Source: Protula sp. h YS-2021 (taxonomy: Eukaryota; Annelida; Polychaeta; Sabellida; Serpulidae). Taken from it: DNA of 64,000 nt. Below the pieces are notes generated by a model. The model had not been told where the DNA came from, made no database searches, and worked only from the letters and a program-made list of their open reading frames with translations. Shown one piece after another: positions 2,580-62,458 of this stretch (position 1 is its first letter; every line of letters begins with the position of its first letter). A program made the translations under genes and the position numbers. The DNA lies in NCBI GenBank assembly GCA_949752745.1, contig OX457024.1:110598219-110662218 (forward strand). The letters run 5' to 3'.

Positions 2580-4562
2580 TACCGCCCGTAACATTAGCCG
2601 CGCTTCTTCCCCACTCCTTCTCCCACTCCTTCCCTTAAAAAGGCATTTAGAACGGCGCTGGAAGCGTTCTAAGAAAAAAAGTCATCTTGCGAACTTTTTG
2701 GAACGGCGAGGAGTCTTCAATTCCTTACTGAACAGCAAGAAGTCGCTATATTTTCAATGCCTGGCAAATGATAGCTGTGGAATCAAAGGGAACATTTCCG
2801 AATATTTAAACGCGTAACAAGACTTCTGAAGTTCAACTTCCTGAACATGAGTCACCAGAGAAGCTTGCTGATGATTTTGCAACATTCTGTGAAGATAAGA
2901 TATCAACAATTAATATATGGAATTCACACCGGATAATCAACATGCCTTTTCTTGATTGCTCCTTTTGAATTCGAAAAAAAATCACCGATGATATAACCCG
3001 CGCAGTTATAAGGAACTCACCTGATAAGACCTGTCTCTTAGACCCTAGTCCGGCGTCTGTATTGAAAATGTGCCTTGATGAGGTTGTACCAGTTATTAAA
3101 GCAATATTTTATCGAACGCTCAGTGAGGGAATCGTTCCTTCATTATTCAAAGAGGCAATAATCACACCACTAATAAAAAAAGCCAAATGGTGGAACATCA
3201 TTGTCAAATTACCGTCCAGTGTCAAATCTTTCATTTTTTTTTGAGCGAAGCGTTAGAACGGGTCGTATTAAAGCGACTAAATGACCATTGTTTGAATAAC
3301 AACCTAATAGACCCATGTCAATCGGCATATAGAAAGGGACATTCTACAGAGACTACACTACTGGAAATATTTGACGACTTGCTCGCGAGTATGGATAGTC
3401 AGAAGGTATCAATTTTAACATTATTAGATCTAAGTGCAGCATTTGGCACAGTGAATCATAATATACTGCTGGATAGATTACACTCATTTTTCAGTATAGA
3501 GGGGACTGCACTTACATGCTTTACAGTTACCTAGAAAATCGTTGTCATTGTGTCAAAACGGAGCAATCTCTGTCAAGGGCGCAAATGCTTTTAACCGAAG
3601 TTCTACAAGGATCAGGACTAGGTCCAAGGGCCTATACTTCATACACACGAGAACTAGGATTTATCATATTGATGATGTCAATTCAGTACCAATCTTTTGC
3701 AGATGTCACATAAATTCAAAAATGTATGTATGTATCTTCCCTCGGGCAACAACTACAAGCAAAGCAAGCTATTGAAAACTGCATAACCAAGGTCTCAAAG
3801 TGGATAAACGCCAACAAACTCAAACTTAATAGTGACAAAACGGAGGTGATTTCGATTGGGCCTCCGCACCAGTTAAAGAAAGTGACATTTAGTGCTTTGA
3901 CCGTGGATACAGTGATGTAACAACAAAGTCAACAGTTAAAAATTTGGGTGTGTTTATTGATTCAAAACTGAAGATGAAATCACAAGTCAATAATGTTGTA
4001 GGAACCTGTTGCAAAAAAACATCCACATGCTAAAAAAAGTTACAGAAATATGTTAGCAGATCGGTACTTCATACCCTTGTTCAAGCCTTTGTAATCTCTC
4101 GCCTCGACTATGCAAACTCGTTATATTTCGGAATACCAGAGTACTTGACCGATAAATTGCAACGTGTTGTAAAACATGACAGTTCGCCTCATATACGATA
4201 TTGGTCACTGTGATCATATTACTCCCGCGCTAGTCGATCTCCATTGGCTTCCAGTACTACAACGCATATGCTTCAAGATAGCTGTGTTGACATACAAATG
4301 CCTCCATGACATGGCGCCGGAATATCTCAAGGCTTTACTGTCTTGGAAAGATCAACCTCGAACATTTCATTCAAGTGAGGCGCTAACACTTCAAGTACCG
4401 CGAACTCGATTAAAGTACGGTGGTGACAGATCATTTCATGCAGCAGCACCAGAAATCTGGAACAATCTTCCATGCCACATGCAAAAAGCCACATCGTTAG
4501 CTGTTTTAAAATCAAAACTAAAATTTTATCTTTTTAAACAAGCATACAGTATTAGCAACTAG
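2580..4562 (+). pseudogene. Reverse transcriptase of L2/CR1-like LINE (broken)
   Basis: In order: a basic linker region (2580-2817, about LERRWKRSKKK), a pre-RT region 'ADDFATFCEDKIS' (near 2865), palm and finger motifs 'GIVPSLFKEAIITPLIKKAK' (3128-3187), 'NYRPVSNLSF' (near 3211), 'QSAYRKGHSTETTLLE' (3320-3367), 'LLDLSAAF', and the C-terminal domain 'HITPALVDLHWLP' through 'LPCHMQKATSLAVLKSKL' (4176-4562). Lesions: a poly-T frameshift at about 3232-3243 just after the NYRPVSNL motif; the catalytic box reads FADV, not FADD; and there are several more frame breaks between 3516 and 4176. In an active element this enzyme copies the element RNA at a nicked chromosomal target; this copy cannot. Confidence 0.85.
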
Positions 4563-4761: not shown

Positions 4762-4999
4762 ATGCAGACAAGTTTGAGAATGCTGACAAATGTCAAACTC
4801 TTTCCACTATCAATAAATAAACCTGATGAGGAATGCGTGGAGAACTTCTAAGGTTAAAGGTTTAAAATGGAAGCGTTTCATTCCTTACAGTATCGGGAGA
4901 AGGGTGACGTCAAGTGGTGAGAGCGAAAGCGCAATTATTAAAGTTCGTAAAGATTGCTTACAAAGTCATTTTAATAAAATGGTAGAGCTTTCCTTTTGT

Positions 5000-7900
5000 A
5001 TGCAAGAAAGGAACGAATAATCACGTCACACAAATAAAGACCTACTCCTCTGCTAAAAAAAACTATTTTATTAACTTGTCCGGGTCCCTCTGATACCCAT
5101 TTTAATTATGAGGAATGTATTCCACTTGACAAGAAGGAAACTGGTGTTGTTTCAACCCTTAATAATTGTTCCATACTGTATAAGAACAATCAATCAATCG
5201 CGTGTTTCATTTACCAGGTGTATAAACTACTCAAATGGTAAGGTTCCGAGTAGTTTCCCCTAATGTTTAACGCCAAAACCTTTAACTCCCAATACAGAAA
5301 CAATTGATTAAGCTAGTTGCATGAATTGCCTACAAGGGACTATGGGAGGCCGCACTAAAATTCAGTATCCAGACCAAACACCCACTATATTCAACTTCTC
5401 CCAAACAGTTTTGGCCCAAAATTGAAGAGACGTAGATTTTCTGACATTGTTTAGACAAAGCTGTTTGACTGCAGCCGAACTCCAACTTTCTGTCGATGTC
5501 TAATGTCAGCAATGTTAGGATACGTGGAGCCGTTATGAAAATATTGTATTGATGTTGTATATCAGGTGCACACCAAACCCTGGCATTTTCAAAAATAGGC
5601 TAAAACAAGAACAAAGATGTGAGAATTTAAAGAGCTCGAAAGCTTTTTCCATCTACTTTTAAAAAATTGTTTTTACCGAATGACCGAATTGCGAGGTTAC
5701 TTTGACGAAGGGTGACCATGCAATCTTATGATTATTCCTGTTGGGATAATAATCATAGACTTTCTCGATATCTGTTGCAATGAAGACTGCTACAGCAGTA
5801 ATTGGGAACGCAAATTTTAATTCTCAGTTGCCAGAGAAGTTTGTTTTAGAAAAGCTGCACGTCTGTAGTTCCAGCTGGTGCGAGGCCCAATTCTGTTTTC
5901 CCTATACACTGCACCAACTGTTGAGTCATTGGCTATGTCACTGTCACCTGGTTTCCAGCTCCATCACTCGTTGCATATATCGACTCGCTGAAGCGCGTAT
6001 AGGCGATGATAGACAATTGTAGAGGAGTACTCATTTGTGCTGAGTAAATGTTTCATTAAACTAGTTCTAGGAATTTGAACAATCTTTTAAACAAATGAGG
6101 ATTTAAAATTTAAAAAAATAAAATAAATAGTTTTTTTAGAAAATTTGGGCTTTATTGGTAATCAATGAGTAACTGTTGAAAATGAGGGTAAAATAAACTA
6201 CAGTATGTTTTGGAATTTTTGTTTTTATTTTTTTAATTTGTTTAAAAATAAAGTAAATAGTTTTTTTACAAAAATGTTGGCTTTATTGGTAATTATTAAG
6301 TAAAGATGGAAAAGTAAATTAGAGTATGTTTTGGAATTTTATTTTCAATTTTAAGGTTAAAGTTTTATAGTTAATGCAGGAAAATATTGGCAGTTAAGAG
6401 TCCGTGGGGTCAGGGAATGATTTCCAAGTTAGTCCCATATGTTAAACTCTTATACAGCTAAGTAAAACCAAAAATCAGAGGAATGTAAGTTGGATTTCAT
6501 GGACAATGACCATTTTAGCTTTTTAATATAGCCTAATTTGCTGCAAAGGTGTTCCAGAGTTGTCCTGTGGTTCTGTTTTAAAATTATTTATAAAAACTTT
6601 TTGGCAATGTTAAAGTACCAGTGAATCTTTAAAAATGATAGAATGAATCTCTGTATTACAGCGTTTTTCAACAGCATATTTCTGTAGATTCTAGAGTGAA
6701 TTAAAGCCCATATCCTATCCATGCAACAAAAATGAGGGCTCAAAACTGGTACACAACCACTTCTCAATATATGTGTGCATGGAGCCAATTTGTATGTGAG
6801 TAACCCCGTCTCGCCCTATAAAGATAATTAAGGGACTTGTAACGTTTAATTCAGTTACAGCTGTTTTCTTTGAACAGGTCCCAAAAGGAATACAAGGTGT
6901 AGGTGCAGGAGGTTACCGTTGTAAAAATTACTCCAAAAAATAATTCCGAAATAACGCAGAGAGGAACACTCACAGACAAATTGGTCAATACACATGTCCA
7001 TAACTTTATAAAACAAAAATAGTCCCCTTTATTGCAAATAACAAAGATGGATAGACACTTACATTTAAATGTTGTGTGCATGATGTTTGGGACCCGTTTT
7101 GTTGGACACAGAGTACAGAAGGAACCAACCTTTATTGTAGAAAACAAGCAGTGCTAAATAAACGTTGGTCCCTGTTAACAAAATTGAAATTTCACGCAGC
7201 CCGCGTCGGACCTCCTACATTACACTTCACTTTTTGTTTTCTTTAAATTAAAAACTTAAGGAAGCAAGTAGTCCTTGCTGCAGCATGTTAATAATGCCAT
7301 TGTTTCTATGAAATGAATAAGTCCCGCTCCTTAGTCAGGGTAGCCGCGCCCCTGCTCCGCTCCCTTCCCCACTCCTTCTCTTTACATACAGACAAGTTCG
7401 TTTGAAAAATTCCTAGGATTACAGGAGCGAAAAAATGTTAACAGCTTTATGATGAAAAGAGAAAAGCATTGCTTCAAGCACATATAAAACGCATATCACT
7501 CTCCTCCATAAAACAATAAAAAGAAAAACTATATCTCAAACAAACAAGTGAACACTTCTTCCGACTTATCATAGTTCCTTTGATTCCCCTCTTACTAATG
7601 AGACATCCTAAGGACTCAGTTACGCTTGACAAAAAAACTGGTGTTGTTTCGACCATCATTTAGTTTATCTACGTGGTATATGAACAATCAACCGATTCAA
7701 TTTTGTTTACAAGGTACAGCCACACGGTGTGAGAACTTCATCTAGCTTTCCGTAATGTCCTAACGCCTTGCCTTTAACATTCAATGCCGAAACAATTGAT
7801 TAAGCGAGCGTCCGGGTCAATAAAATGAGAGCGCCCCGGCATTAAAAATGCAGCATCTTGACCCAACACCCACTATTCTCAACTTCTCCCGAATGGCTTT

Positions 7901-10095: not shown

Positions 10096-10833
10096 TTACT
10101 TTACATACCTGATTTTTAGGTTTAATTTTTCATCGATAATTACTCCAAGAAATTTAGTCGACAGTACTCTTGAAAGCGCTTCATTACCAAATAAAATGTT
10201 GGGTTGATACCTGCTTTTTAGTTTTCCAAACACCATGAAGTTGGTTTTCGAAATATTTAAAGAAAGCTTATTCAATTTGAACCACCTGTTTAATTTTGTT
10301 AATTCTTTGCTTATTATTTCACACATGTTAACCGGGTCTCTACCTGTATAGAAAATATTTGTATCATCAGCAAATACAATAAATTTGAGGAAAGACGAAA
10401 CATTCACAATATCATTTATATATAATATAAAGAGTTTGGGTCCCAAAATTGACCCTTGTGGGACACCACAGGAAACATTTAAGGTATCAGAGACAAAATT
10501 ATCGATCTGTATATACTGCTGCCAATCACATAAATAACTATTTAGCCAACTGTTTGAGACACCCCTAATGCCATAAAAATTTAGCTTTTGCAAAAGTAAC
10601 TTGTGGTCAATCGTATCGAATGCTTTCTTTAAGTCTATGAACACTCCAATGGTAATAAGTTTTTTGCCTATAGATGAGGTTATTTCCTCCACAAGTTCTA
10701 ATAGAGCTGTTGCGGTAGATCTCCCACTACGAAAACCGTATTGACTATCACTTAACAATGTATACTTATCAATAAATTTATTTAAGCGAAATTCAAATAA
10801 TTTTTCCAAAATTTTAGAAAACTGGGGTAACAA
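10096..10833 (-). pseudogene. Reverse transcriptase core of Jockey/CR1-like LINE
   Basis: A 245-residue open frame with intact RT motifs in order: 'SQYGFRSGRSTATALLEL', 'GVFIDLKKAFDTIDHKLL', 'VSCGVPQGSILGP', 'FIVFADDTNIF' (catalytic FADD preserved) and 'KTNFMVFG...FLGVIIDEKL'. Upstream, 10859-11335 (minus) is the pre-RT region, which ends 'FPNIMKRAKVIPLYKSGEK'. It is separated from the core only by a short frame break in an A-rich tract. Downstream, 9624-9917 (minus) is the C-terminal region starting 'RLIYGADRLAHTKGIF'. This is the best-preserved RT in the window, although no endonuclease domain remains. Confidence 0.85.
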
Positions 10834-10858
10834 TGATACAGGTCGATAGTTATTGAAC

Positions 10859-11335
10859 TTATTTTTTTTCTCCTGATTTATACAAAGGGATAACTTTTGC
10901 TCTTTTCATAATGTTCGGAAAAACACCCGCTGTAAACGACAGGTTACATATAAACGTAAAAGGCTTGACAATACTTGAGATAACGTTCTTAACAGTTGTC
11001 ATTTCTAAGTGATAACAATCTAACGACACCTTGTTATGAAAGGCTTTAACAATTTTTTCAACTTCAATTTCTTCCATAGGAGTTAAGAAAAAGGAATTTA
11101 TATTTTGATTTCCCATATAATCTAATACATTTCCATCAACTATTGATTCAATGTTTTCTGCTAAGTCTGGGCCAACATTAACAAAAAACCTGTTGAAACC
11201 ATTCACAATGCCATTAAAGCCTTTGTAACCCTTTGAATCAATAAAGGAATCTGGAAATTTTGACTTAATTTTTTCCCGTCTGAGGTTATCCATAGGGGGG
11301 GGGGGGGAAGCGCCAGGGGGGAGACCGCCCGTTCC
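10859..11335 (-). pseudogene. Pre-RT region of the Jockey/CR1-like LINE
   Basis: About 150 residues upstream of the RT core, including 'GFNGIVNGFNRFFVNVGPDLA' (the usual region where the element protein ends its linker and begins the RT fingers) and 'NLSFTAGVFPNIMKRAKVI'. The frame opens into a proline/glycine stretch coded by the poly-G tract at the right junction, which is not native LINE sequence. Confidence 0.7.
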
Positions 11336-16090: not shown

Positions 16091-16329
16091 CTTAAACCAT
16101 GGAATGAAATGGTACATTGTAGTACATGCTCGCTTCAAGACAATGACGGCGTGTCATGACAGAACAAGTGAATAGTGCATTTATCAGCAGTCCAACATAT
16201 GCAGCATACAATCCAGCTGATATTGAAAAGGACTTGTCAGCCTATAAAATGTGTTTACTAAGTTTGACGAACATGAATGACAAGGCTCTAGCTGGATGCT
16301 TGATAATATATACTGTACATTGAAGTACA

Positions 16330-18728
16330 GCGCCTCTGGAAGCAAGCAGTTTAATCCCACTGCAGAAGAAAGTGAGGAATACGAAGGGTGTGTTAAACAT
16401 TAAGAATAAAAGTAACAAGTGTTCCTTATGGTCAGTACTGGCTCACCTTCACCCTCTTCAGAACAACCCACAACTCGCGAATCAATACAAACCATTTGAG
16501 AAGGAATTAAAAGTAAAGGGCATGACATTTCCCACACCGATTACCGACATTCCAAAGTTTGAAAAGGAGAACGAGGTGTCCATCAACGTGTTTGGATATG
16601 AACAAGATGTGGTTGTTTCGATACAACTCAGTCGAAACGTCAGTGCGAGAGAAATCAACTTACATCTGATTAGCAATGCCAAGAAAAAGCATTACTGCTT
16701 CATCAAGAATTTCAGCAGACTTATGTCTTATCGTACCAAGCATAAGACTACAGTTTTTTATTATTTCAACTGTCTTCACGGGATTATACGACAAGATCTT
16801 TTAGATGAGGATCGTGAAGTGTGTGGCAGGCATGGAGCATGTTTATCATTCCCCAAGGAACCTAGCATTAAGTTCAAGAATGTATCCAAAAAACAACGAG
16901 CACCTTTTGTGATTTATGCTGGCATTGAATGGTTCACGCAAAAGCATGAAGGGGATAGGTATCAGCATCATCGCCCAAACAGATTTGCCTATGTGGTTGT
17001 CAGCCAGTATTACACATACGCACCAGTCGTGTATCTGAAACACAGTGCTCTGACAGTCTTTTAGACCATATGGTCAACGAGCGTGATCGTATTGTGCGTG
17101 GTTTAGAGCAACCAAATGATATGGTGATGACTTGTGAGGACCGAGAGACTTTTAAGAATGCTGTCGATTGCTACATTTGTCATGAGCCTCTAGGAGCGGA
17201 TCATGTCAGAGATCATGATCATATCAATTGCAAATACCACAGAACAGCGCATAATAAATGCAACTTGCAATTTCAACTTAGAAAGTATCGGCAGGGGGAT
17301 AAAGATTCTTTTATCATTCCTGTGTTTTTCTACAATTTACGAGGCTATGACGTTCATCTGATCATGGAGGAAATTGGTAAATTCAAAGATGAAACAATTA
17401 TGGTCTTTGAGAAATATATTGCTTTTACCATGAGCAATCTGAAATTTACGGACATGACTTCTCACATTACGATGGTGACCAACAAGATTTGCTGCTGAAA
17501 GGGAGTGTACCCCTATGATTACGTGGACCAACCATCCAAGTTTGCTGAAACGCAGCTACCGTTAGAGGACGCGTTTTACAGTCAGTTCATCGAAGAGGTC
17601 ATTAACGATGAAGATTATGCTCACGCGCTGAAGGTGTGGGATACATTCAACTGTATCACATTCGGTGAATACGGATGTACTACTGCTGGCCGACGTGTTT
17701 GAAAATTGTCGTCAAGTATGCCTCAACAAGTGTGAATTGGATCCTTCTCATTTATGTACAGCGCCAGGACTGTCGTGGAATGCTATGTTAAAAGCAACAA
17801 AGTTGAAGTTGAAATTAATCGCAGACATTGATATGTACCAAATGGTTGAACAAGGCATACGTGGAGTAATATCTGTGATCACGCACAAGTATGCGAAAGC
17901 AAATAGCCCCCACGTAACAGCTTACAATTCTGATATACCAAACAACTACCTGATGTACCTGACGCAAACAGCCTGTATGGCTGGACCATGTCGCAAAGCA
18001 TGCTACAAAGAGGAATTATGTGGGTGAGAATGCCTAGATTTCATGGATGTGGCTGAAGATGAGGAGGTTTGATTTATTTTGGAAGTGTATTTAGAATACT
18101 CACATTCAATCCATGATCGTCATATTCACTACACAGTGGCTTCAGAAAGGAAATGTGTCAAAGTTGGAAAATTGTCAGGGCACAGTCAGAAGCTACGGAA
18201 AAATCTGAATATGAAAGGCAAACCTAGTGTAAAGCTCATTACTAACCTATGTAATAAGAAGAAATATGTGCGACATTATAGGAATTTGCAGCAGTACGTC
18301 TCACCGGGGTTGAAAGTCACCAAAGTGCATCATGCCATCATGTTTGAACTGAGAAAATGGTTGGAGAAATACAATACCTTGAACACGGAAAAGAGAAAAT
18401 TAGCTAAGAACATGTTTGAGAAGACTTCTTCAAACTCATGAACAACTCTGTGTTTAGCAACACCATGGGAAATGTGAGAAAGCGAACCAATGTTGAATTT
18501 GTTCACAAGGAAGAGCGGTTTAAGAAACTCGTGGCCAAAACCTTCTTTCCACAAATTCAGAATTTTCAACGAAGATTTGACTGCCGTACATTTCGTAAAG
18601 TGGATTTGCTTCTGGATAAACCCATTCAAGTCGACTTCACCATTCCCGACTTGAGCGAAGTGCTTATGTTTACAATTACATCATGGCTGAGTATAAATAC
18701 AAAGTTGTTTCTCAGCGACACAGACAGT
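16330..18728 (+). pseudogene. Protein-primed DNA polymerase B (Polinton type), copy A main part
   Basis: Fragments in order: 16372-17064 ('SLWSVLAHLHP', 'ITDIPKFEKENEVSINVFGYE', 'FVIYAGIEWF', where the usual exonuclease Asp is Gly); 17070-17498 (zinc-binding 'CYICHEPLGADHVRDHDH', 'HNKCNLQFQLR', then ExoII-like 'FFYNLRGYDVHLI'); 17505-17702; 17665-18027 ('LLLADVFENCRQVCL', 'APGLSWNAMLKAT', 'GIRGVISVITHKYAKAN'); 18079-18441; and 18438-18728 ('NNSVFSNTMGNVRKR', then DTDS at 18717-18728). Lesions include a lost T at about 17058, a 1-nt shift near 17498 shared with B, about 23 bp deleted near 17672, and a lost base in motif A near 17955. The protein would replicate a linear element genome. Confidence 0.85.
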
Positions 18729-18904
18729 ACCTATAAATACTGTCTTGATACAGCAAACCCCTTTGGTTCTTCAGGCACCGACCAGACTTCAACACGCGTT
18801 TTGACGATTAGAGTGCTACGCGCTCTGTCTGGCTAGGGTGATCATTCCTAACTACCTCCGGCGTGGCACGCTATATCTAACTATCTGTCCACGCTGATCT
18901 ATCT

Positions 18905-19540
18905 TCACTAGCAAAATTCCGTCGTATTCGTTTGATTTCGTCTCTTAGTTCCATGTGTTTTCCCCCGGCCAATGCTCATCCTGGCCCAGACAATCTGCTC
19001 TTTGGAGAGCCCACTAGACCAGTAGATGTCTCCTGGGACTGCCTCCGCAATTACAGTTCTTGCCTCTAGGAGTATACGTTTATATGCGGGTACGTCTCTT
19101 TCTTTCGCTCTAATTATTTCCCTCATGACGTCTAGCTTCTCATTATCCCAGGATTGCTCAGCAGGTAATCTCTTCCCTAGTCTCTTGGCAGCACATGCTC
19201 TCGTCTGCTTACATATATTCTCTGCAAGCCGGTCTCGGCCGTAGAACTTCTGCTTAATGAACTGGTACGCGTGTTCAGAGGACCGGAATCTGCGTTCAAA
19301 CACTGTCACTTGGCATGGGTAGAAATTACTTAGGACGTCGTCTTTGCCTTTAAATGGTGTTACGTCGGTTAATGGTGTGGTTAGGCGCATCGGACATCTT
19401 TCTGCTAGCGTCTGATGTTCGGTTGATCTGCAGACTTTGCACATCTGACTCTCCCGAGCATCAGAAATCACGGGATGAAGCAGCTGTGTGGCTTCAGGGG
19501 AGTTTGTTGCTACTTCTGCTGTCGATCTTTCGCCTTTCTT
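18905..19540 (-). pseudogene. NADAR (YbiA-like) domain at the C-terminus of the R2-type LINE
   Basis: The frame continues from the endonuclease region across one TGA (19541-19543). First comes a knuckle-like 'CKVCRSTEHQTLAERC' (C-x2-C-x4-H-x6-C). Then, by residue number in the 187-residue ORF ending at 18908: 'PFKGKDDVLSNFYPC' (39-53), 'FRSSEHAYQFIKQKF' (62-76), 'AAKRLGKRLP' (94-103), 'W..EKLDVMREIIRAK' (108-123), 'ARTVIAEAVPGDIYWSSGL' (137-155). The closing NADAR signature WPGEN and 'MELRDEIKRIR' follow but are split between frames near 18960. These are the conserved NADAR blocks. Known NADAR enzymes cleave the N-glycosidic bond of ADP-ribosylated guanine or related riboflavin/NAD metabolites. 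The role in a LINE is inference. Confidence 0.8.
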
Positions 19541-20510
19541 TCACCATATCCATAGCGATGCAGATTCCGCTCTTTTCCCGGCTTCGTTAATCACGTTACG
19601 CCTTTCTTTGCCAACGATGCCTAATGTCTTCCACGCTCTCCATAGCGAATTTCATTGGTAACCTCGGCAGCCTACTTCAACGGGAAAGCATCATGTCTTC
19701 CAACCGTTTGCTAGGCACTGGTCGGTTAGCTCTGTGTACTTTCTCTCGTAGGCCTCCTCTATCCTGTCTTCCCATGGAATGGTTAGCTCTATAATGACGC
19801 AAATTCGCTGCTTACTGGAGAAGATTACGACATCTGGTCTTAAATTCGTCACAGCAATTTCTTCAGGGAACCTTAGCTGCCATTTGAGGTCAGTTAGCAG
19901 CTTTCAGTAGTCCGCCATGGTGAGTATCCCATTTGCTGTTTTGTATGTACTTGCTCGTATCATCTGAGAGCTCCTCTGGTTACCCCTGACATATGTGATG
20001 AATCTCGGCTTAGAACTGGCGGGCTTTCTCTGTCGCGCTATCTCCAGACTTCCTACTAATACCTCCAGCACCTGATCATGACGCCATTTATATTTTCCTA
20101 ATGTATGAGCTTTGCTGCATGAGCTCAGAATGTGCTCTAGAGTCGCTCGACGTCCACATGCGTCACATGCTGGGTCATCTTTCAGTCCACATATTGCTAG
20201 GTTACTTGGCGTAGGCAACACGTCCCTGTGCCCTTAGGCTCACAGCTTTTGCTTTCCTTGCTTCCTCTTCCTGGTTCCTTATTTGGGGTTGCACCATTCC
20301 TCTTCGCTGGTCGTTCGATGCTTTGCTCCATTGGGAGCGAGTAATGCATCCTAGGCCCAAGCGGTTCCTAGTTGCCATCCCCACAATGTCACTATGTCTC
20401 AAACATGACTCAGCTTCCTCCAGGGCTTCCTGAGCTTGCCAATTCTTTCCTGTCCTTACTTCCACCCCTGCCTCACAGACTTTCTTGTCCCTGTAGTCTC
20501 TGACGGTCAT
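19541..20510 (-). pseudogene. CCHC knuckle and restriction-like endonuclease of the R2-type LINE
   Basis: 20202-20510 holds the post-thumb region ('GVEVRTGKNWQAQEALEEAE'). 19904-20221 holds the knuckle 'CDACGRRATLEHILSSC', that is C-x2-C-x7-H-x4-C, followed by 'KWRHDQVL'. Past a frame break the endonuclease core follows: RPD at 19832-19840, then 14 residues, then ELTIPWEDRIEEAYERKYTE (Glu codon 19787-19789), and later 'PVEVGCRG'. PD-x(12-14)-E is the metal-binding pattern of the R2-family endonuclease, which nicks the target DNA for target-primed reverse transcription. TGA codons at 19691-19693 and 19541-19543 interrupt it. Confidence 0.85.
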
Positions 20511-22365
20511 GGCTGCATACTTTTGTCACCTTGAATTCTTCCACCAGAGACGTCACGGGTGGCTGGAGCACGCTTCCTGTGCTGTACAATGCTATACTTG
20601 TAAGCCTACGGAGAACATTAAGCCACTTTAGGAGGTAGGTGCTTATCCTTCTTTCTATTTTCTCAACGGTAGATAGCGGGAAGTCATACACAAAGAGTGG
20701 CCATATTAGTCTCGGCAATATTCCGTGTTGGTAACACCACGCTTTGTATGTGCCATGTAGTCCACTTTTCTCGACTTCCTTTATCCACTTCTCTGTCTGC
20801 CGAACGGTCTCATCTATACTATCCTTGTCTTTTCCCGTGTTGTTGAACAATTTGCCTAAACATTTGATGCCTAAACGTTTTTCCTTCACGGTGGGTATCG
20901 CGTGGCCGTTTATCTTGAATGTAATTTGCTTCGGCTTGCCGTTCTTAATGACGAGACTTCTGGACTTAGTCGGCTTAAACTTCATCCGTGCCCAAGTAAA
21001 GATGGCTACCAGGCCGTCTAGCATCCAACGTCCTTGATGAATAGTACGTGTCATTATGGTCATGTCGTCCATGAAGGCTCTGGTGGGCGGCTGGACAGTT
21101 CCTGAAGCTGAGACAGCGCCCCTTGACCTGTTCTCTTTACTCTTTGCAAGAAGGTTAACGGCCGCTGCAAATACAATCACCGATATAGTGCATCCGGTTA
21201 TGATCCCTATTTCAAGGTTTTGCCACTAGGTTGTATAATTCCAGACAGAGAAACGCATTATGAAGTTCTCGTAGTACTTGTTTAGCATATTCCTTATCTT
21301 CGGAGGAACGTGGTAACGCTCGAGGGTCAACTCAACCAGTTTATTGGGTATGGTTCCATGGGCATTTGTGAGATCTAGCCAAATAACTGCTAGCTCACCG
21401 TGGTTGGTCCTTGCTTCTTTGATAATTTGTGTAACAACGCTTATGTGTTCGATGCATCCGGAAACTCCAGGTATGCCTCCTTTCTGCACAGAAGTGTCAA
21501 TGGAGCCGTTGATTAAGAGGTATTTTGTCATTCGCTTAGCAAGTATTGACAAAAATAACTTGCCCTCGACGTTTAACAGCGAGATTGTTCTGAATTGCTT
21601 GATTTCTGTCGACTTCTCTTCCTTAAGAGCGAAATTTCCTTCGGATGTTAACCAGCTTTTTGACATCCTTCCCCTTCGCTAAATCATCTTAATCATGTGG
21701 AAAAGTCGTTACTGAAGCTTGGGGCAGTTCTTATAGACCCGGTAAGGGATTCCGTTCGGACCAGGGGATATGCCCGCCCTGGCCTTCTTTAACACATCCT
21801 GTAACTCTCTGAACTTTAGAAGTCCGTCATCGAACAGGTCGCGAGGTTCAGCAGGTCTCAACAGAGTATCATTTTCTTCTAGATCTTGTGCTCTTTGAGG
21901 GCCACTTTAGGTGAGTCGAAGGTATTCCTCAACTTCTTCCCGAGGTTTCTCTAGGTTACCACTTCGTTTATCACCGAGCATCTTTGACATGTAATGGAAG
22001 GGGTTTGATGTGAAGCGTGCGCGCTTCGTCTCCTCTCCCTTCTCTTCCGTCTATGGTTTTTTCTGCGAGCTTGAGTGACCTTAGTTTTACTCTGTTAAGC
22101 AGCGTTAGCTCTGCAAATGCTATCCTTTCCTGCGGTGAGGCGGACTTATTGCGCTTACGGAGGTTTTTCAAGTCGCTACGAAGCTGTCTCATGTCGTTTT
22201 CTCTTCTATTTGGTGTTGGAGCAGTAGCACCAGGCTTTGCTTGTTTGACACCAAAGATATCTTTGAAGACACTGTATGCCATCTTGCGGTCTACGTCCCC
22301 CTTCAATGAGGCCTCCAGGATACCTTCTAATTGGTCGTCTAGATTGGACCACCACATCTTGTCAC
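20473..22365 (-). pseudogene. Reverse transcriptase of the R2-type LINE
   Basis: N-terminal linker '[20 protein letters not shown]' (ORF ending 21971), then 'KKARAGISPGPNGIPYRVYK' (about 21760), then an ORF 21226-21666 with 'FRTISLLNVEGKLFLSILAKR', 'VQKGGIPGVSGCIEH' and 'VIWLDLTNAHGTIP', then 20473-21180 with 'RAFMDDMTIMTRT' (catalytic FMDD intact), 'WARMKFKPTKSRSLVI' and the thumb region 'YQHGILPRLIWPLFVYDFPL'. These are the signatures of a widespread animal LINE family whose polymerase is followed by a restriction-like endonuclease. Frame breaks lie near 21970-21670, 21225-21180 and 20500. Confidence 0.85.
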
Positions 22366-22822
22366 TTATGACATAGAAATGGAAGATATCTACAATGATA
22401 TACAGCAAGCTGCTGATCTGTTCGACACAAGTGAGTATCCGACAGATCATTTCCTACTTTCCAAAGTGAACAAAAAAGTGCTTGGAAAAATAAAGAATGA
22501 GAGGGCAGGCATCCCAATTTAAGAGTTTGTTGGATTCAGACCAAAAATATACAGTTTAATGTGGGAAAGAAAAACATACGGCTAAAGGCATCACTCGAGC
22601 TTGTCAAAGACGCTTGAAAAATATGCAGTAGAGACAGTTTGCTCAACCAAACTCAAACGATGGCTACAGGGCACATTATTCGAAGTCATGACCACCAGTT
22701 TTCTCCCAGAAGTTGAGAAAGTAGCCCTCTCGACATATGACGACAAGCAATACGTGTTGAATGATTGCTATTCCACCTTGGCACATGGACATTACAAGAC
22801 GACGGGAACACGCCGGCCCTAA
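22366..22822 (+). pseudogene. Polymerase B C-terminal part, copy A
   Basis: Resumes after the R2-type LINE with '[21 protein letters not shown]', '[18 protein letters not shown]', 'EFVGFRPKIYSLMW' and the final 'STYDDKQYVLNDCYSTLAHGHY' (22729-22794). This is the usual C-terminal end of Polinton-type polymerase B. A stop after AGIPI (near 22520) and another near 22580 break it; the first is shared with B. Confidence 0.8.
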
Positions 22823-24157
22823 TCCCCGGTCAAATCCTCAGCTATTCAGTGAATAATGAAGTCCGACCTCACTTTGATTGAACGAAAACCTACTAACATC
22901 ACAGTGTTTACAAAGTATGGATAATGTAGTAGTTAGTATAACAACCTAAACATCGGCCAAATTGTGGAACATCCCAACAGAATATCATTACAAACCAAAG
23001 CATTCGCATTTTGTCAGTGCACATTTTTTTAACGTCATTATATTTAAAGATACTTTTTTAAACTTACTTTTTTATATCAGCACTCTTAAGTACTCTTAAT
23101 AGTTTTAATGATTTTATATAGCATTCCAGAAATAGGTATATTATAGCTAAAATTTTTTTGTTGTCGATCGGCCTTGACTTTGTTAATTGAAAAACGTAAG
23201 AACTATTTTGTAAGTACTTACTTAGAATTGCGTCATTAAATCTTAATGGTTAATATCATTGTAGTTCCACACCAGGAAAACTAACTGTTCTGCTCATCCT
23301 CGATTGATCATTTAAAATGTACCAAAACGAGTAAAATGATGTAATACTGTGTATCTTATAAGTCAAAACAGGTTTGGTTTTACTCTGGCTGTGCATTTTT
23401 TAATCGTCGATATGGTATATTTTAAATTTTGGATGTGATCAAAAGCTATTGGTAGTCTTTGTGTGACTCCACAGGTATAATTGCGTAAGTGAACTTCATA
23501 AGCGTACTTCCATATGTGTAACTGAGAAGTGGACTATAAGTGTTGTTTTACCTATTTGATAGCAGCATACGTTATATCCACAGCAATGAAGGCGAATTAC
23601 AATGTCATTATACATACGGTATTTAAATCCATAATGGGCTAAGACAGTTGCAGTCAATAAAAATTAAAAGAAGTTTCAGAAAATGAATTAAAGCTATTGT
23701 AAGTTTTTTTTGTTTATTAATTTAGGTGTTTGTTGCACAAATGACTGCACCTAAAATAGTTTTAGGCAACTCTATATTTTCACCAAGCACAGTTAAAACA
23801 GCATGTTAAAATTAGAATCTTGAGCAAAAATAAAGTATGTTATGGTGTGTGAAGAATGTATGAGTATTCCCGGATGTAAATAAAGCCAATATGTATAGTT
23901 TTTACCACAGCAGTTAAATTGAAACGGTTTAATGTCGTTTTTTCTTCAAATAGCATAGCTTATGTACAGAATGCGATAAATATTGAAAGTTGGTAATTCA
24001 CAATTTTCTTCACAAAAATAATGGAAAATATCCCATTAAGTCATATTTCTATAAGTCTACAAGCTATAAATATTACCATGAGTAACATACCCTTAATATT
24101 TTGAGAATATTTCGGCATATTAAATTCCTTTTTATAAGAAGTGTTTCTGACCATATT
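22823..24157 (+). other. Downstream non-coding block, copy A
   Basis: No gene recognised. Shared with B 59050-60389 at high identity and, for the left 0.8 kb, with inverted copy C (29920-30640). In C this block lies directly downstream of the intact Cys-rich gene, so it is the original 3' flank of that gene. Confidence 0.6.
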
Positions 24158-24559
24158 ATTGGCTAGTGTATCCTTGATTTGATCTCTCATTGCATAAGCC
24201 TCAATCCACATGTCAGAGGAGGTTAAAACATAAACATACGGCTTGTTTCTGGTTGAGATTGTTTATCATTTAAAGAGACCGACTCAACTGGCAGTCTCCT
24301 TAAATATCTCTGCAATAGATTGCAGGAAGACCTTCGTAGACTTTTCTTCTTTAAAAAGATACAAGTTCAAAACTTTAAAGTTCCACATTCTTATGCATTT
24401 CAAAAAATATCTGCTGAATATATATCAGGCCAAAAATATCTGAATCCAGGAGTAAGATTTATCTTCTTATCACAAGGAATCCGAAAAAAGATCTCCACCC
24501 TGAATTTAACATAATGGAAGTTGTTTTTCTTGAAATTATTCAAGAGTTGGGTCCTAGCA

Positions 24560-53969: not shown

Positions 53970-56007
53970 CTAGTCAAACTGCTTTTGAATTTTATCCACC
54001 TTGGACCTAAAATAATCACTGAAATCATCAGCTAATTGCATAGGTGATGAATGTTCTGGTAGCGGATTGGTTTGAGTTCGGTGCATAATTTTATTCATTG
54101 TCTTATATAGCGCCTTTTGATCGCGTTTATTTTGAGAAACTGTTTTACAAAGATTATCAGTTTTAGCCTTACTAAGACTATGCTGATAGTCATCACAATG
54201 CTTCCGAAACTCGGTATTATCCTCGTCGCTACGTGTTTTACGATATCGCCGTTCAAAAATACGTGATCGTGTTCTTTTGGCATGCGTTTCTTCATTAAAC
54301 CAAGGCTCCCTTTTGTCACGTTTCGTTTTACTAATCAACGGTGCATGACGTTCAAGTAGACCCTTCATCTCTGTATTGTAGGAGGTAACAAGTGTATCCA
54401 GATCCATTGACTGGTTATTGCTATAAAGATTTGTAGATATTATATCTTTCCTAAAAACATCTACATCAATGTCTTTAAGCTTCCTAAAAGTTACCATTTT
54501 CTTGACAGGTTTGGGTTTGGGGATGTTTAACTTGGTCATCGGAATGTAATGGTCTGATATCAAGTCACCCACTTCGATACCATCAAGCCCAATTGAATCT
54601 GAGTTTCGTGTAATAATATGATCGATGACATTGCCTTTAACATGGGTGGGCATATCGACATGTTGTGTGAGGTTAAAGGTACTGAGAGTCTCAATATATC
54701 TCTGAGCACTATCCTTGTCATAGTGGATATTTAAGTCCCCTGCAATAATAATGGGCTCCCTCCAAGACAAATCTGTTCAAGGAGACTAGCACACTCTTCA
54801 TAAAACTCTGTAAGTGAATACTGAGGAGGGCGGTAGATAACTAAAACCCTTAGAGAGCGTGGTGCAGAATAAAGCTCTACCACACAACATTCGAATGTAG
54901 AAAAATGTGGAAGACTGATTTTCTTCGTTTTAAAAGTGTCTCTACATAGTATGGCCACACCGCCACCACCACTGGACCTATTTTCATGAACAAGGGTAAA
55001 ACAGTTCCTTAAAATTTTTTCTGTTTTATATATAGATTCAGTGTCTTATCGAATGCCCTTTTCACATTTATTAAGGAATTGTTGACATCAAAAAATAATT
55101 TTTGATCTCAAAAATTGATAATTTGATATCAAGAATTCATTTTTAATCTAAAAAAATCCATATTTTGATATCAATAATTAATTTTTGCTATCTATAATTG
55201 TGTTTTTGATATCTCTAAATGTATTCTTGATCTCAAAAAAAACATTTTTTGATATCAATAAACTTTAGAGATATCAAGAAATATTGAGATCAAAAATTCA
55301 ATTCTTGAGAGCAAAAATGAAATATTTGAGATCAAAATATTAATTTTGAGCTCAATAATTCATTTTCCTTTTATTGATATCAAGAATTTATTTCAGATTT
55401 CATTATTTCAGAATGGAACTATTTTAATTTGTATTTTGAAATTTGCAAATGATTTTTTGATCTCAAAAATGGATTTTTGATATCAAAATATCAGTCTATT
55501 TTTTAAATAATAAATTCAGAAGCACACATCTGTAAGTTAATAATGACTGGCCCTTGTATGTAGAATCTTTGTTTAAATTTTTTACTGTACAGAAAGAAGC
55601 AATTCTTGAGATCAAAAATTGTGTTGTTATTATTGATCTCAATAATTCAAGTTTTCATCTCCAAAATATAATTGACGATTCGTTAAATTTTATGTAAATG
55701 TGTATCTTCTTTAAGATTTTTTATGTTTGTAAATTTTATTTTTTGATCTCAAAAATAAATTTTTACCATCTACAATTCAATTATTGATAGCAAAATATAA
55801 ATTATTGAGATCTACATTGATTTCTTGATATCTTTAATTATATTTTGATATCAAAAATAAGCATTAAATGTTAAAACGGCATTCCATAGTGTCTAACCAT
55901 GTCTCTGTAACAGCTAAAATGTCAATGTGTTCTTCATAGATTGTGTGTTTAATCAGATCAAGCTTATTACGCACAGAGCGAGCATTAACTGTAGAAAACA
56001 GGGCCTT
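53970..56007 (-). pseudogene. AP-like endonuclease domain of the B-only LINE (split)
   Basis: Reading right to left: 55866-56007 codes 'STVNARSVRNKLDLIKH' and 'HIDILAVTETWLD', the opening of an APE-type LINE endonuclease. The array at 55060-55865 interrupts. Coding resumes about 55015 with 'LVHENRSSGGGGVAILCRD'. A frameshift near 54765 leads into 53970-54770 with 'IIIAGDLNIHYD', 'HVDMPTHVKGNVIDHIITR', 'SDHYIP' and a basic linker. The domain nicks target DNA in active relatives. A further 5' ORF (56008-56361, with 'KRRGNRGGQRLRR') is separated by a stop. Confidence 0.8.
55060..55865. repeat. AT-rich array of GATATC / GATCTC / GAGATC palindromes
   Basis: About 0.8 kb, almost pure A/T apart from recurring 'ttgatatcaa', 'ttgatctcaaaaat', 'tgagatcaaaa' and variants every 20-40 bp on both strands, with no fixed period. 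It lies inside the LINE endonuclease coding sequence, whose two halves flank it, so it is an insertion or a local expansion. Confidence 0.8.
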
Positions 56008-61005: not shown

Positions 61006-62458
61006 ATGAATGACGAGGCCAACGTTGATAGCGTGTCAGTAATGTCAGGAGGCTCAGGTACCTCAGTGTCGTCTGCTATGGCTATGACACGAGCGCGGAA
61101 GGCGGCTCTCCTCGTGAAGGAGAAACACGCTGAGGAACGGGCCCATTTGGAGAGGCTGCAGCTTGAGAAGCAAGCAACAGCTTGACGTGCAGTCAGATAT
61201 TGAGGCCGCAGACGCCGAAGAAAAGGTGCTTGTAGAGGCCGAAGCTGCTATCTCTGGGGCACAGCCTGTGAGTGTAACGTCAGTAGAAGGTGCCACTGCA
61301 ATGCCATCTCAGCCTTTGTCTGCATTCGCCATGCCATTTCAACCAGCAACTGTGAGTACTGAATTTAAATTTGACCACGCTCAAGTTTCCACGATGTCCA
61401 AGTCATTTGATATCAGACCACGTGAAAATCTGCCTCATCTTGACAATGTACCTCCAGTTTGCGCAAAAGATCCGGTGACCTCAAAGCTGTTTGATGTCAA
61501 ACCACCGGAAAATCTTTCTCCTCTGGACAGTGTACCTCCCAATAGCGTTAAAGATCTGGCGCGGTCGAAGCCATTTGATGTCAGACCACGTGACACACTT
61601 CCTTCGATTGACGCTAGTGCAAAGTACAGTCCAGCTTATGACAGGTTTAGTGGTGTGCCTAGTCCTATACACAACGTAGGACAGCATGCATCAGCACTGA
61701 CGGCTGAAACAGTCTCCCCTTTCTCGCATCAACCACGTCAAAGTTGTCATCCAGCATTCTCCACCACATTTCAGTCGCTACCAAATCAGCCCCTACCTGC
61801 TGAAAGCATCCAACAATTAGCTGCCTTGGCTGTTGCTGCTGCATTACCCGAAACTGAAATATTGACATTTGATTCTGATCCAAAGAACTACGTCGAATTC
61901 ATCACTAACTTTAAGATAAATGTGGAATCAAAGGTCTATGAACCATCGGTTTTACTGAACTACTTAATCAGTTACTGTACAGGAGAAGTCAAACACCTAA
62001 TAAAGAACTGTGTTCTTTTAGGAAACCAAGGCTATACACGTGCGCTAGAGCTTCTCAATGAACGCTACGGTCGCAGAAATGAAATCGCTTGTTCAAGTAT
62101 AGATTCTCTTATGAAAGGCCACATCGTCAAAGGAAATGATTCTCGTGGTCTTATCGCGCTGAGCGACGAAATGGAAAGGTGTGCCCTCACGTTACAGTCC
62201 CTAGGGTACGAAAGCGATTTGAACTGCACGCCTACACTGAAGGCAGTAGCCCTGCGTTTGCCCAACTACATTAGAGTTAAATGGGCTGAGTTCGTTTACA
62301 GTTTCTCGCACCTGCGTGACCCAACGTTTAATGATTTGCGTGTTTTTGTAAAGCAGCGTGCAGGTGTCGCAATGTCAACATACGGCGAGATGTTGCGGAG
62401 AGAAGAAATCACAGTTAAAAACCAAAGCACAATACAAGCAAGACAGTATCAACGGTAA
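61006..62458 (+). pseudogene. BEL/Pao gag
   Basis: Starts at ATG 61006 ('MNDEANVDSVSVMSGG') with a charged coiled-coil-like stretch ('KEKHAEERAHLERLQLEKQ'). A frameshift near 61165-61185 moves to the frame that runs to 62458. Three tandem repeats of about 28-29 residues follow (61394-61620: 'SKSFDIRPRENLPHLD', 'SKLFDVKPPENLSPLD', 'SKPFDVRPRDTLPSID'). The conserved core is from about 61840: 'FDSDPKNYVEFITNFKIN', 'LLNYLISYCTGEVKHLIKNC', 'ALELLNERYGRRNEI', the Pao gag domain. It forms the particle that packages element RNA. Confidence 0.85.

Follow-up and report, generated by a model that had tools for sequence, protein, structure and literature searches.

Positions 18728-22367 (minus strand) of the window, by which we mean the whole 64,000-nucleotide stretch of DNA analysed here, hold an R2-like LINE with a reverse transcriptase (RT), a CCHC motif and a restriction-like endonuclease (RLE). 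This copy has lost its 5' part, is decayed and is dead. The family to which it belongs encodes a NADAR domain, which moves with the LINE and lies C-terminal to the RLE in the same frame. Why would a retroelement end its replication protein in this way? Our answer, held tentatively and at somewhat short of an even chance, is that an RLE LINE family ending in a CCHC knuckle and a YbiA-class NADAR would bring its own ADP-ribosyl-guanine hydrolase, acting in cis.

The decayed copy and its class

The initial annotation had placed the element at 18905-20510. Its parts are all present, namely the CCHC motif, the RPD-x14-ELT endonuclease, the NADAR blocks over 19345-18992 and a WPGEN in another frame. 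The extent was too small, as the whole copy runs over 18728-22367. Relative to siblings, about 102 nt are also missing at about 20223. Where a single TGA (19541-19543) had been counted, the frame 20233-18908 holds four. The features are as follows.

18728..22367, minus: 5'-truncated, decayed RLE LINE, 3' terminus at 18728 (...GACAGTATTTATAGGTA)
21971..22367, minus: region upstream of the RT (ORF list)
20473..21678, minus: RT in two frames, FMDD at the active site (Pfam RVT_1)
20222..20225, minus: deletion junction, about 102 nt missing relative to siblings (blastn gap, oriented position 4777/4778)
20117..20167, minus: CCHC motif between RT and RLE (CDACGRRATLEHILSSC; from the sequence; zf-RVT 0.004, under cut-off)
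19735..19840, minus: RLE motif RPD-x14-ELT...EAYERK (by eye)
19541..19906, minus: four in-frame TGAs (19904-19906, 19691-19693, 19652-19654, 19541-19543)
19394..19441, minus: second CCHC knuckle, C-x2-C-x4-H-x6-C, just before the NADAR (from the sequence)
18992..19345, minus: NADAR, Pfam-matched part (PF08719, 7.3e-17)
18905..18971, minus: frame-shifted NADAR end (WPGEN ... HMELRDEIKRIRR; from the sequence)
18728..18904, minus: 3' untranslated tail, no poly-A (3'-end alignment of 18 rows)

Both ends were placed by blastn: similarity to siblings stops at 18728, or one or two bases off, in most copies, and the 5' truncation point at about 22367 is seen against L024 and L034. In sibling L024, whose frame 5312-5983 corresponds to the region upstream of the RT, a zinc-finger-like motif (C-x-C...H...C, by eye) lies N-terminal to this pre-RT region; the window copy has lost it. 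The two RT pieces of the window match Pfam RVT_1 at 3.3e-6 and 2.4e-4, both under the curated bit cut-off, and the L024 frame that matches them does so at 1.2e-16. The endonuclease region of the window has no Pfam RLE match; the motif was recognised by eye (RPD at 19840-19832, ELT at 19789-19781), and [RK]PD...ELT recurs in the siblings and in the public proteins P0027, P0031 and P0033. WPGEN lies at 18971-18957, out of frame with the rest of the NADAR; in L023 the corresponding stretch stays in frame, with WPGKN at residue 787.

By its sequence the element is R2-like in the wide sense, not R2 proper. The best PDB matches of the L024 RT are R2 proteins (9nl3, 1.8e-21; 9dou, 2.6e-21), the best LINE-1 match reaching 2.4e-13, and L023 has, by eye, a CCHC (residue 385) and then a PD-D/E endonuclease (residues 494 and 510) C-terminal to the RT. 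The ranking of RT matches, the order CCHC then RPD...ELT and the lack of poly-A are shared with R2 and related RLE LINEs (R2Tg, 9dou; R2, 9nl3/9nl2), and the zinc-finger-like motif of L024 is likewise R2-like. R2 proper inserts at a site in 28S rDNA. The present copies are dispersed and do not appear to be R2 proper; a 28S rDNA target is not supported by the 3' flanks of the 18 rows, which differ except for one common to L029 and L035. The label "R2-type" in the initial annotation thus stands in the wide sense, for an RLE LINE with an RT closest to R2 proteins among solved structures, and is not supported for R2 in the strict sense. Beyond dispersed insertion, the difference from R2 and related RLE LINEs is about 200 extra aa, the knuckle and NADAR, past the usual C-terminus. 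PMC10294476 found no R2-superfamily group other than Hero in bivalves.

The LINE sits in a segment of at least 7.5 kb (window 16920-24442) that has a second copy, L021, with about 99% identity and at a distance of about 41 kb along the same chromosome. On the plus strand, window 16324-18727 and the sequence from 22368 on look like what is left of a protein gene into which the LINE seems to have inserted. By eye this gene resembles a DNA polymerase of type B (HNH-like CICHEPL..., SDTDS), as in a Polinton-like element; Pfam gave no match up to E 0.1 on seven plus-strand pieces flanking the LINE on both sides. Other retroelement-like remains lie at 10096-10905 and 53970-54776 (minus) and 61118-62458 (plus), and include a LINE RT (3.5e-37), an AP-endonuclease-like frame (1.8e-4, under cut-off) and a DUF1759 frame (9.4e-14).

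The NADAR is part of the LINE and moves with it

In the 863 Mb genome the NADAR frame has at least 18 matches at 83-100% identity over at least 190 of 210 residues, the window's own included; this is a lower bound because 150 of 1876 candidates were scored. We examined 8-kb regions around the other 17 matches and around L038, a relative that is more diverged. Their similarity to the window spans RT, RLE and NADAR as far as the truncation of each copy allows. Of the 18 rows (window, L022-L038), 17 share a terminus, TATTTATAGG, with at most two changes (L037 lacks it); it lies about 180 bp beyond the end of the NADAR frame, and after it the flanks diverge. A common 3' end with variable 5' truncation, as seen among these copies, is the pattern of RLE-type LINEs. 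The 3' ends of the 18 aligned rows carry no poly-A, and in six copies checked for target-site duplications the longest shared strings were 4-6 bp, none convincing. Two NADAR-LINE copies follow each other in L024, where the 3' end of the first lies just upstream of the second.

The arrangement is uninterrupted in L023, one of the copies elsewhere in the genome that the initial annotation had proposed to count. A single unrepaired frame encodes 824 aa there, extending from the RT end to include the NADAR, with the second knuckle at residue 630 and the NADAR at 663-805. Linkage between RLE and NADAR was counted on 57 of 153 RLE matches (28 loci at ≥66% identity, seven at 53-65% and 22 at ≤52%) against 38 NADAR rows, second pieces of one locus not being counted twice. 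A NADAR lies within 1 kb downstream in 27 of the 28 closest loci, the exception being a partial RLE match. At 53-65% identity it accompanies four of seven; L055 and L056 have a decayed NADAR on reading and only L054 is without, an absent row being no proof of absence where 150 of 1876 candidates were scored. The 22 loci at ≤52% were also compared by eye with the remaining scored NADAR matches.

The same fusion occurs among public predicted proteins, as the initial annotation had envisaged. P0027 (628 aa) is a single protein with thumb, CCHC, RLE, knuckle and NADAR, aligned at 50% identity with 92% of the RLE-NADAR frame of L024, and P0002, P0028 and P0012 combine an RLE tail with a NADAR. P0027 comes from another genome or from an unscored family, because its best matches here, among 70 of 3104 candidates scored, reach 63-68% in the RLE part and 57% in the NADAR part. 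No loci related to P0002 were confirmed in viral contigs.

Relatives that end earlier show where the extension begins. Six of eight NADAR-less proteins (P0030, P0031 from Branchiostoma belcheri, P0033 from Mytilus galloprovincialis, P0034, P0039 and P0045) stop 9-16 aa after a W-x-W motif, beyond which the NADAR families run for about 200 aa; P0032 and P0038 have C-terminal ends unlike the other six. Seven of eight NADAR-less loci examined in the genome stop within 15 aa of W-x-W and L052 after 49, and the 554-1011 bases past the stops of these eight contain no NADAR match. Copies of the NADAR-less L053 family follow one another head to tail in arrays that repeat about every 3.65 kb (G000:C1:96837039/96840679, C1:99363587/99367239/99370887 and C2:5499961/5503607).

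Could the NADAR be flanking host sequence or a chance neighbour, outside the LINE? We regard this as practically eliminated by the 3' end shared beyond the NADAR, the 824-aa open frame, the linkage in 27 of 28 loci and the fusion in other sources. The sole point in its favour is that NADAR-less relatives occur in the same genome, a finding that the initial annotation held would make the domain flanking sequence. Such relatives do exist (L049-L054, L057 and L058, with P0030, P0031 and P0033 among the proteins), but they are diverged families that group outside the NADAR families.

Identity, gain and maintenance of the domain

The window NADAR matches Pfam PF08719 with 62.5 bits against a curated cut-off of 35.1, and the frame of L023 scores 81.2 bits, with the profile matched to its last position. 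Searched against PDB sequences with phmmer, the window domain finds the Phytophthora nicotianae NADAR 8bau (4.8e-10) and Escherichia coli YbiA 2b3w (6.9e-7). An AlphaFold model (pTM 0.63) has pLDDT of 78-97 over residues 31-160 and 58-73 over residues 161-190, and is poorest (58-66) over the strand bearing the last catalytic Glu. With this model Foldseek returned the same two structures (8bau, 7.4e-6; 2b3w, 3.5e-5) and no other match at E<0.001, in loose superpositions (TM 0.48-0.58, rmsd 5.4 and 9.5). The profile match and the predicted fold for which the initial annotation had hoped were thus both obtained, the second with this looseness of fit.

Candidate catalytic residues are the Glu at 19274-19276 and Lys at 19253-19255 (SEHAYQFIK) and the Glu at 19043-19045 (IAEAVPGD), mapped to E88 and K95 of the E. 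coli C7 NADAR and to the YbiA-class Glu by spacing and by alignment to 8bau and 2b3w. These residues appear mostly retained in the NADAR families. They are kept in 16, 13 and 16 of 18 family-A rows, respectively, as well as in P0002 and, by eye, P0027. The Lys is Arg or Gln in three of 18 family-A rows, and L039, of family B and with a frame otherwise open, has Thr in its place. In the second knuckle, none of the 18 family rows has lost any of the four ligand positions. In sequence, fold, catalytic Glu/Lys and YbiA-class Glu, the domain resembles 8bau, YbiA and the DarT1-linked antitoxins. The known guanine-ADP-ribose hydrolases of this superfamily, as presented in PMC11543638 and PMC11125620, are stand-alone or part of toxin-antitoxin systems, whereas here the domain lies within the replication protein of a mobile element.

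At least three diverged NADAR families can be distinguished: A (L022-L038), B (L039, L045-L047) and C (L055 and L056, decayed); L048 is a decayed fourth. In a tree of the CCHC-RLE region, with eight family-A rows selected, 16 NADAR-bearing rows fall on one side of a branch and eight rows without NADAR on the other (support 90/90). In a wider RLE tree, with six family-A rows, without L047, L048 and L050 and rooted by choice on the Branchiostoma row, 14 NADAR rows group together against 15 without, at 77/54, which is not strong; the NADAR rows plus the NADAR-less L054 form a supported group (96/94). Because the NADAR lineages group together in both trees, the domain was probably gained once.

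Has it been maintained since? Copies chosen by NADAR similarity may make the NADAR seem better preserved than RT and RLE, and we therefore compared shared with private changes within the NADAR, leaving out L021 and L038. Family-A variants present in at least three copies are nonsynonymous and synonymous in the ratio 6:11, whereas the singleton ratio is 72:34, which gives a site ratio of 3.36 (Fisher p 0.014); singletons too fall under the neutral expectation (0.63 per site, p 0.03). Median pairwise dN/dS in the family-A NADAR is 0.40 over 134 pairs, below 1 as the initial annotation had anticipated. Thus the lineage is constrained while single copies decay. RT and RLE show the same pattern, with 7:16 shared against 448:197 singleton changes. 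Pairwise dS between families is saturated; between L023 and L039, NADAR dN is 0.29. On these sequence comparisons, the NADAR has been kept under purifying selection at the lineage level, in several diverged families and in proteins from other sources.

Other NADAR retroelements and the proposed function

The capture of NADAR domains by retroelements is already known. PMC12477816 describes NADAR domains at the N-terminus of pol in Ty3/Gypsy elements of Ectocarpus and within the ORF1 of Tx1 LINEs from Crassostrea gigas, and its authors suggest RNA processing. Those elements share with ours the capture of the same superfamily; the position differs, since here it is the C-terminus of an RT-endonuclease protein, behind a second CCHC knuckle, and not the N-terminus of a Gypsy pol or a Tx1 ORF1. 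We found no report of an RLE LINE with a NADAR in the open-licence PMC literature, several topics of which were covered by top-ranked papers only, and the R2-like case appears new in print so far. An m6A demethylase domain in orchid Ty3/Gypsy elements, reported in PMC9289625, is likewise a captured eraser of a nucleic-acid modification in a retroelement, with another enzyme, mark, element class and host.

The present genome holds NADARs in two further element classes.

L041:2962-4500 and L060:3-1601 (G000:C1:98780500-98787300): Ty3/Gypsy pol with an accessory knuckles-NADAR-TatD frame
L044:725-1987 and 3586-4410: Tx1/L1-like LINE, NADAR in the C-terminal part of ORF1, APE in the next frame

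The pol of L041/L060 has the RVT, RNase H and integrase of a Ty3/Gypsy element; the accessory frame behind it encodes two knuckles and a NADAR (2.8e-24) and ends in a TatD DNase domain (3.1e-34). Among the 150 scored NADAR matches, 22 resemble L041/L060 in identity (41-42%) and span, one of which was examined; that so many are alike, often with equal scores, suggests a young family. The same NADAR-TatD pairing occurs in P0018 (738 aa), from another source. L044 has a 421-aa frame with a NADAR (5.9e-31) and then an APE-type endonuclease frame (4.2e-14); at least six of the scored matches have such 421-aa frames. Two further frames, L040 (241 aa) and L042 (1096 aa, with an Arg/Ser-rich N-terminal part), combine a knuckle with a NADAR 6 kb apart at G000:C7:20.89-20.91 Mb. 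They are candidate host genes and may be a source of the knuckle-NADAR module. A NADAR tree (family A represented by the window, L022, L023 and L024; P0012 and P0027-P0047 not included; truncated P0005 and the near-copies P0013, of P0002, and P0015, of P0016, left out) grouped the RLE-LINE domains with P0001, P0003 and P0006 (93/98) and placed the Gypsy domains elsewhere, with L042 (89/92). It did not resolve the source of the LINE's NADAR. The different groups suggest that LINE and Gypsy NADARs are separate captures.

What would such a domain do for the LINE? The NADARs assayed in PMC11543638 and PMC11125620, a eukaryotic one included, hydrolyse ADP-ribose from guanine and not from thymine; the same papers describe the Glu and Lys as largely conserved over the superfamily, and PMC11209040 reports guanine-N2 ADP-ribosylating activity in six clam species. 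On these grounds the domain is best read as an eraser acting in cis. Delivered as an ADP-ribosyl-guanine hydrolase, it would be held by the knuckle on single-stranded RNA or DNA exposed during target nicking and reverse transcription. There it would free guanines in the nucleic acids of the element from ADP-ribose while target-primed reverse transcription proceeds. The ADP-ribose would come from host ADP-ribosyltransferases, in defence or in DNA-damage signalling, and its removal would leave cDNA and second-strand synthesis unblocked. According to PMC11125620, NADARs vary in how far they protect cells from toxic guanine ADP-ribosylation.

Rather less likely, in our judgement, is that the fold and its knuckle form an ORF1-like nucleic-acid-binding or assembly domain, the hydrolase chemistry being irrelevant to the element. 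Knuckle and NADAR do co-occur in several proteins, the domain sits in ORF1 of L044 and of the C. gigas Tx1 elements (PMC12477816), and L039 has lost the catalytic Lys; yet most rows, P0002 and, by eye, P0027 keep Glu, Lys and Glu. A hydrolase with a different N-glycosidic or ADP-ribose substrate, such as ADP-ribosylated protein, RNA ends or NAD-derived metabolites, would be another solution, for example by blunting host PARP signalling at the nick. PMC11125620 calls the physiological roles of NADARs across eukaryotes, animals included, unclear, which leaves room for this, but the preference of the assayed enzymes for guanine-ADPr over thymine-ADPr (PMC11543638, PMC11125620) makes us consider it unlikely. 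Finally, a host exon captured by 3' transduction and carried as a neutral, functionless passenger would sit at the 3' end of the element, as the NADAR does, and L040 and L042 are candidate host genes of the right kind. We think this very improbable for a domain that is in frame, present through several diverged families and other sources, and under lineage-level purifying selection.

Fusion to the replication protein points to the nucleic acid of target-primed reverse transcription as the substrate, and RLE LINEs gain an example of an enzymatic C-terminal extension. A broader and doubtful proposal is that animals of this kind use guanine ADP-ribosylation against retroelements, which might repeatedly have armed themselves with NADAR erasers, in line with the arms-race role that the initial annotation had suggested. 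On the same doubtful footing, the arming would have occurred at the RT-endonuclease end of an R2-like LINE, in the NADAR-TatD accessory frame of Ty3/Gypsy elements and in a Tx1/L1-like ORF1. Were it true, NADAR retroelements would be a eukaryotic counterpart of the DarT1-NADAR conflict in phages and bacteria. NADARs in three element classes of one genome allow the idea of base ADP-ribosylation as a mark against retroelements to be tested.

Of code tables 4, 5 and 9, table 5, which many invertebrates use, suits the mitochondrial COX1 best (407.9 bits; table 9 gives 400.5 and table 4 gives 383.4). Long frames that combine a NADAR with a GDSL-like esterase/lipase were also seen, in L043:2-3289 (0.007) and in P0019 (5.9e-11).
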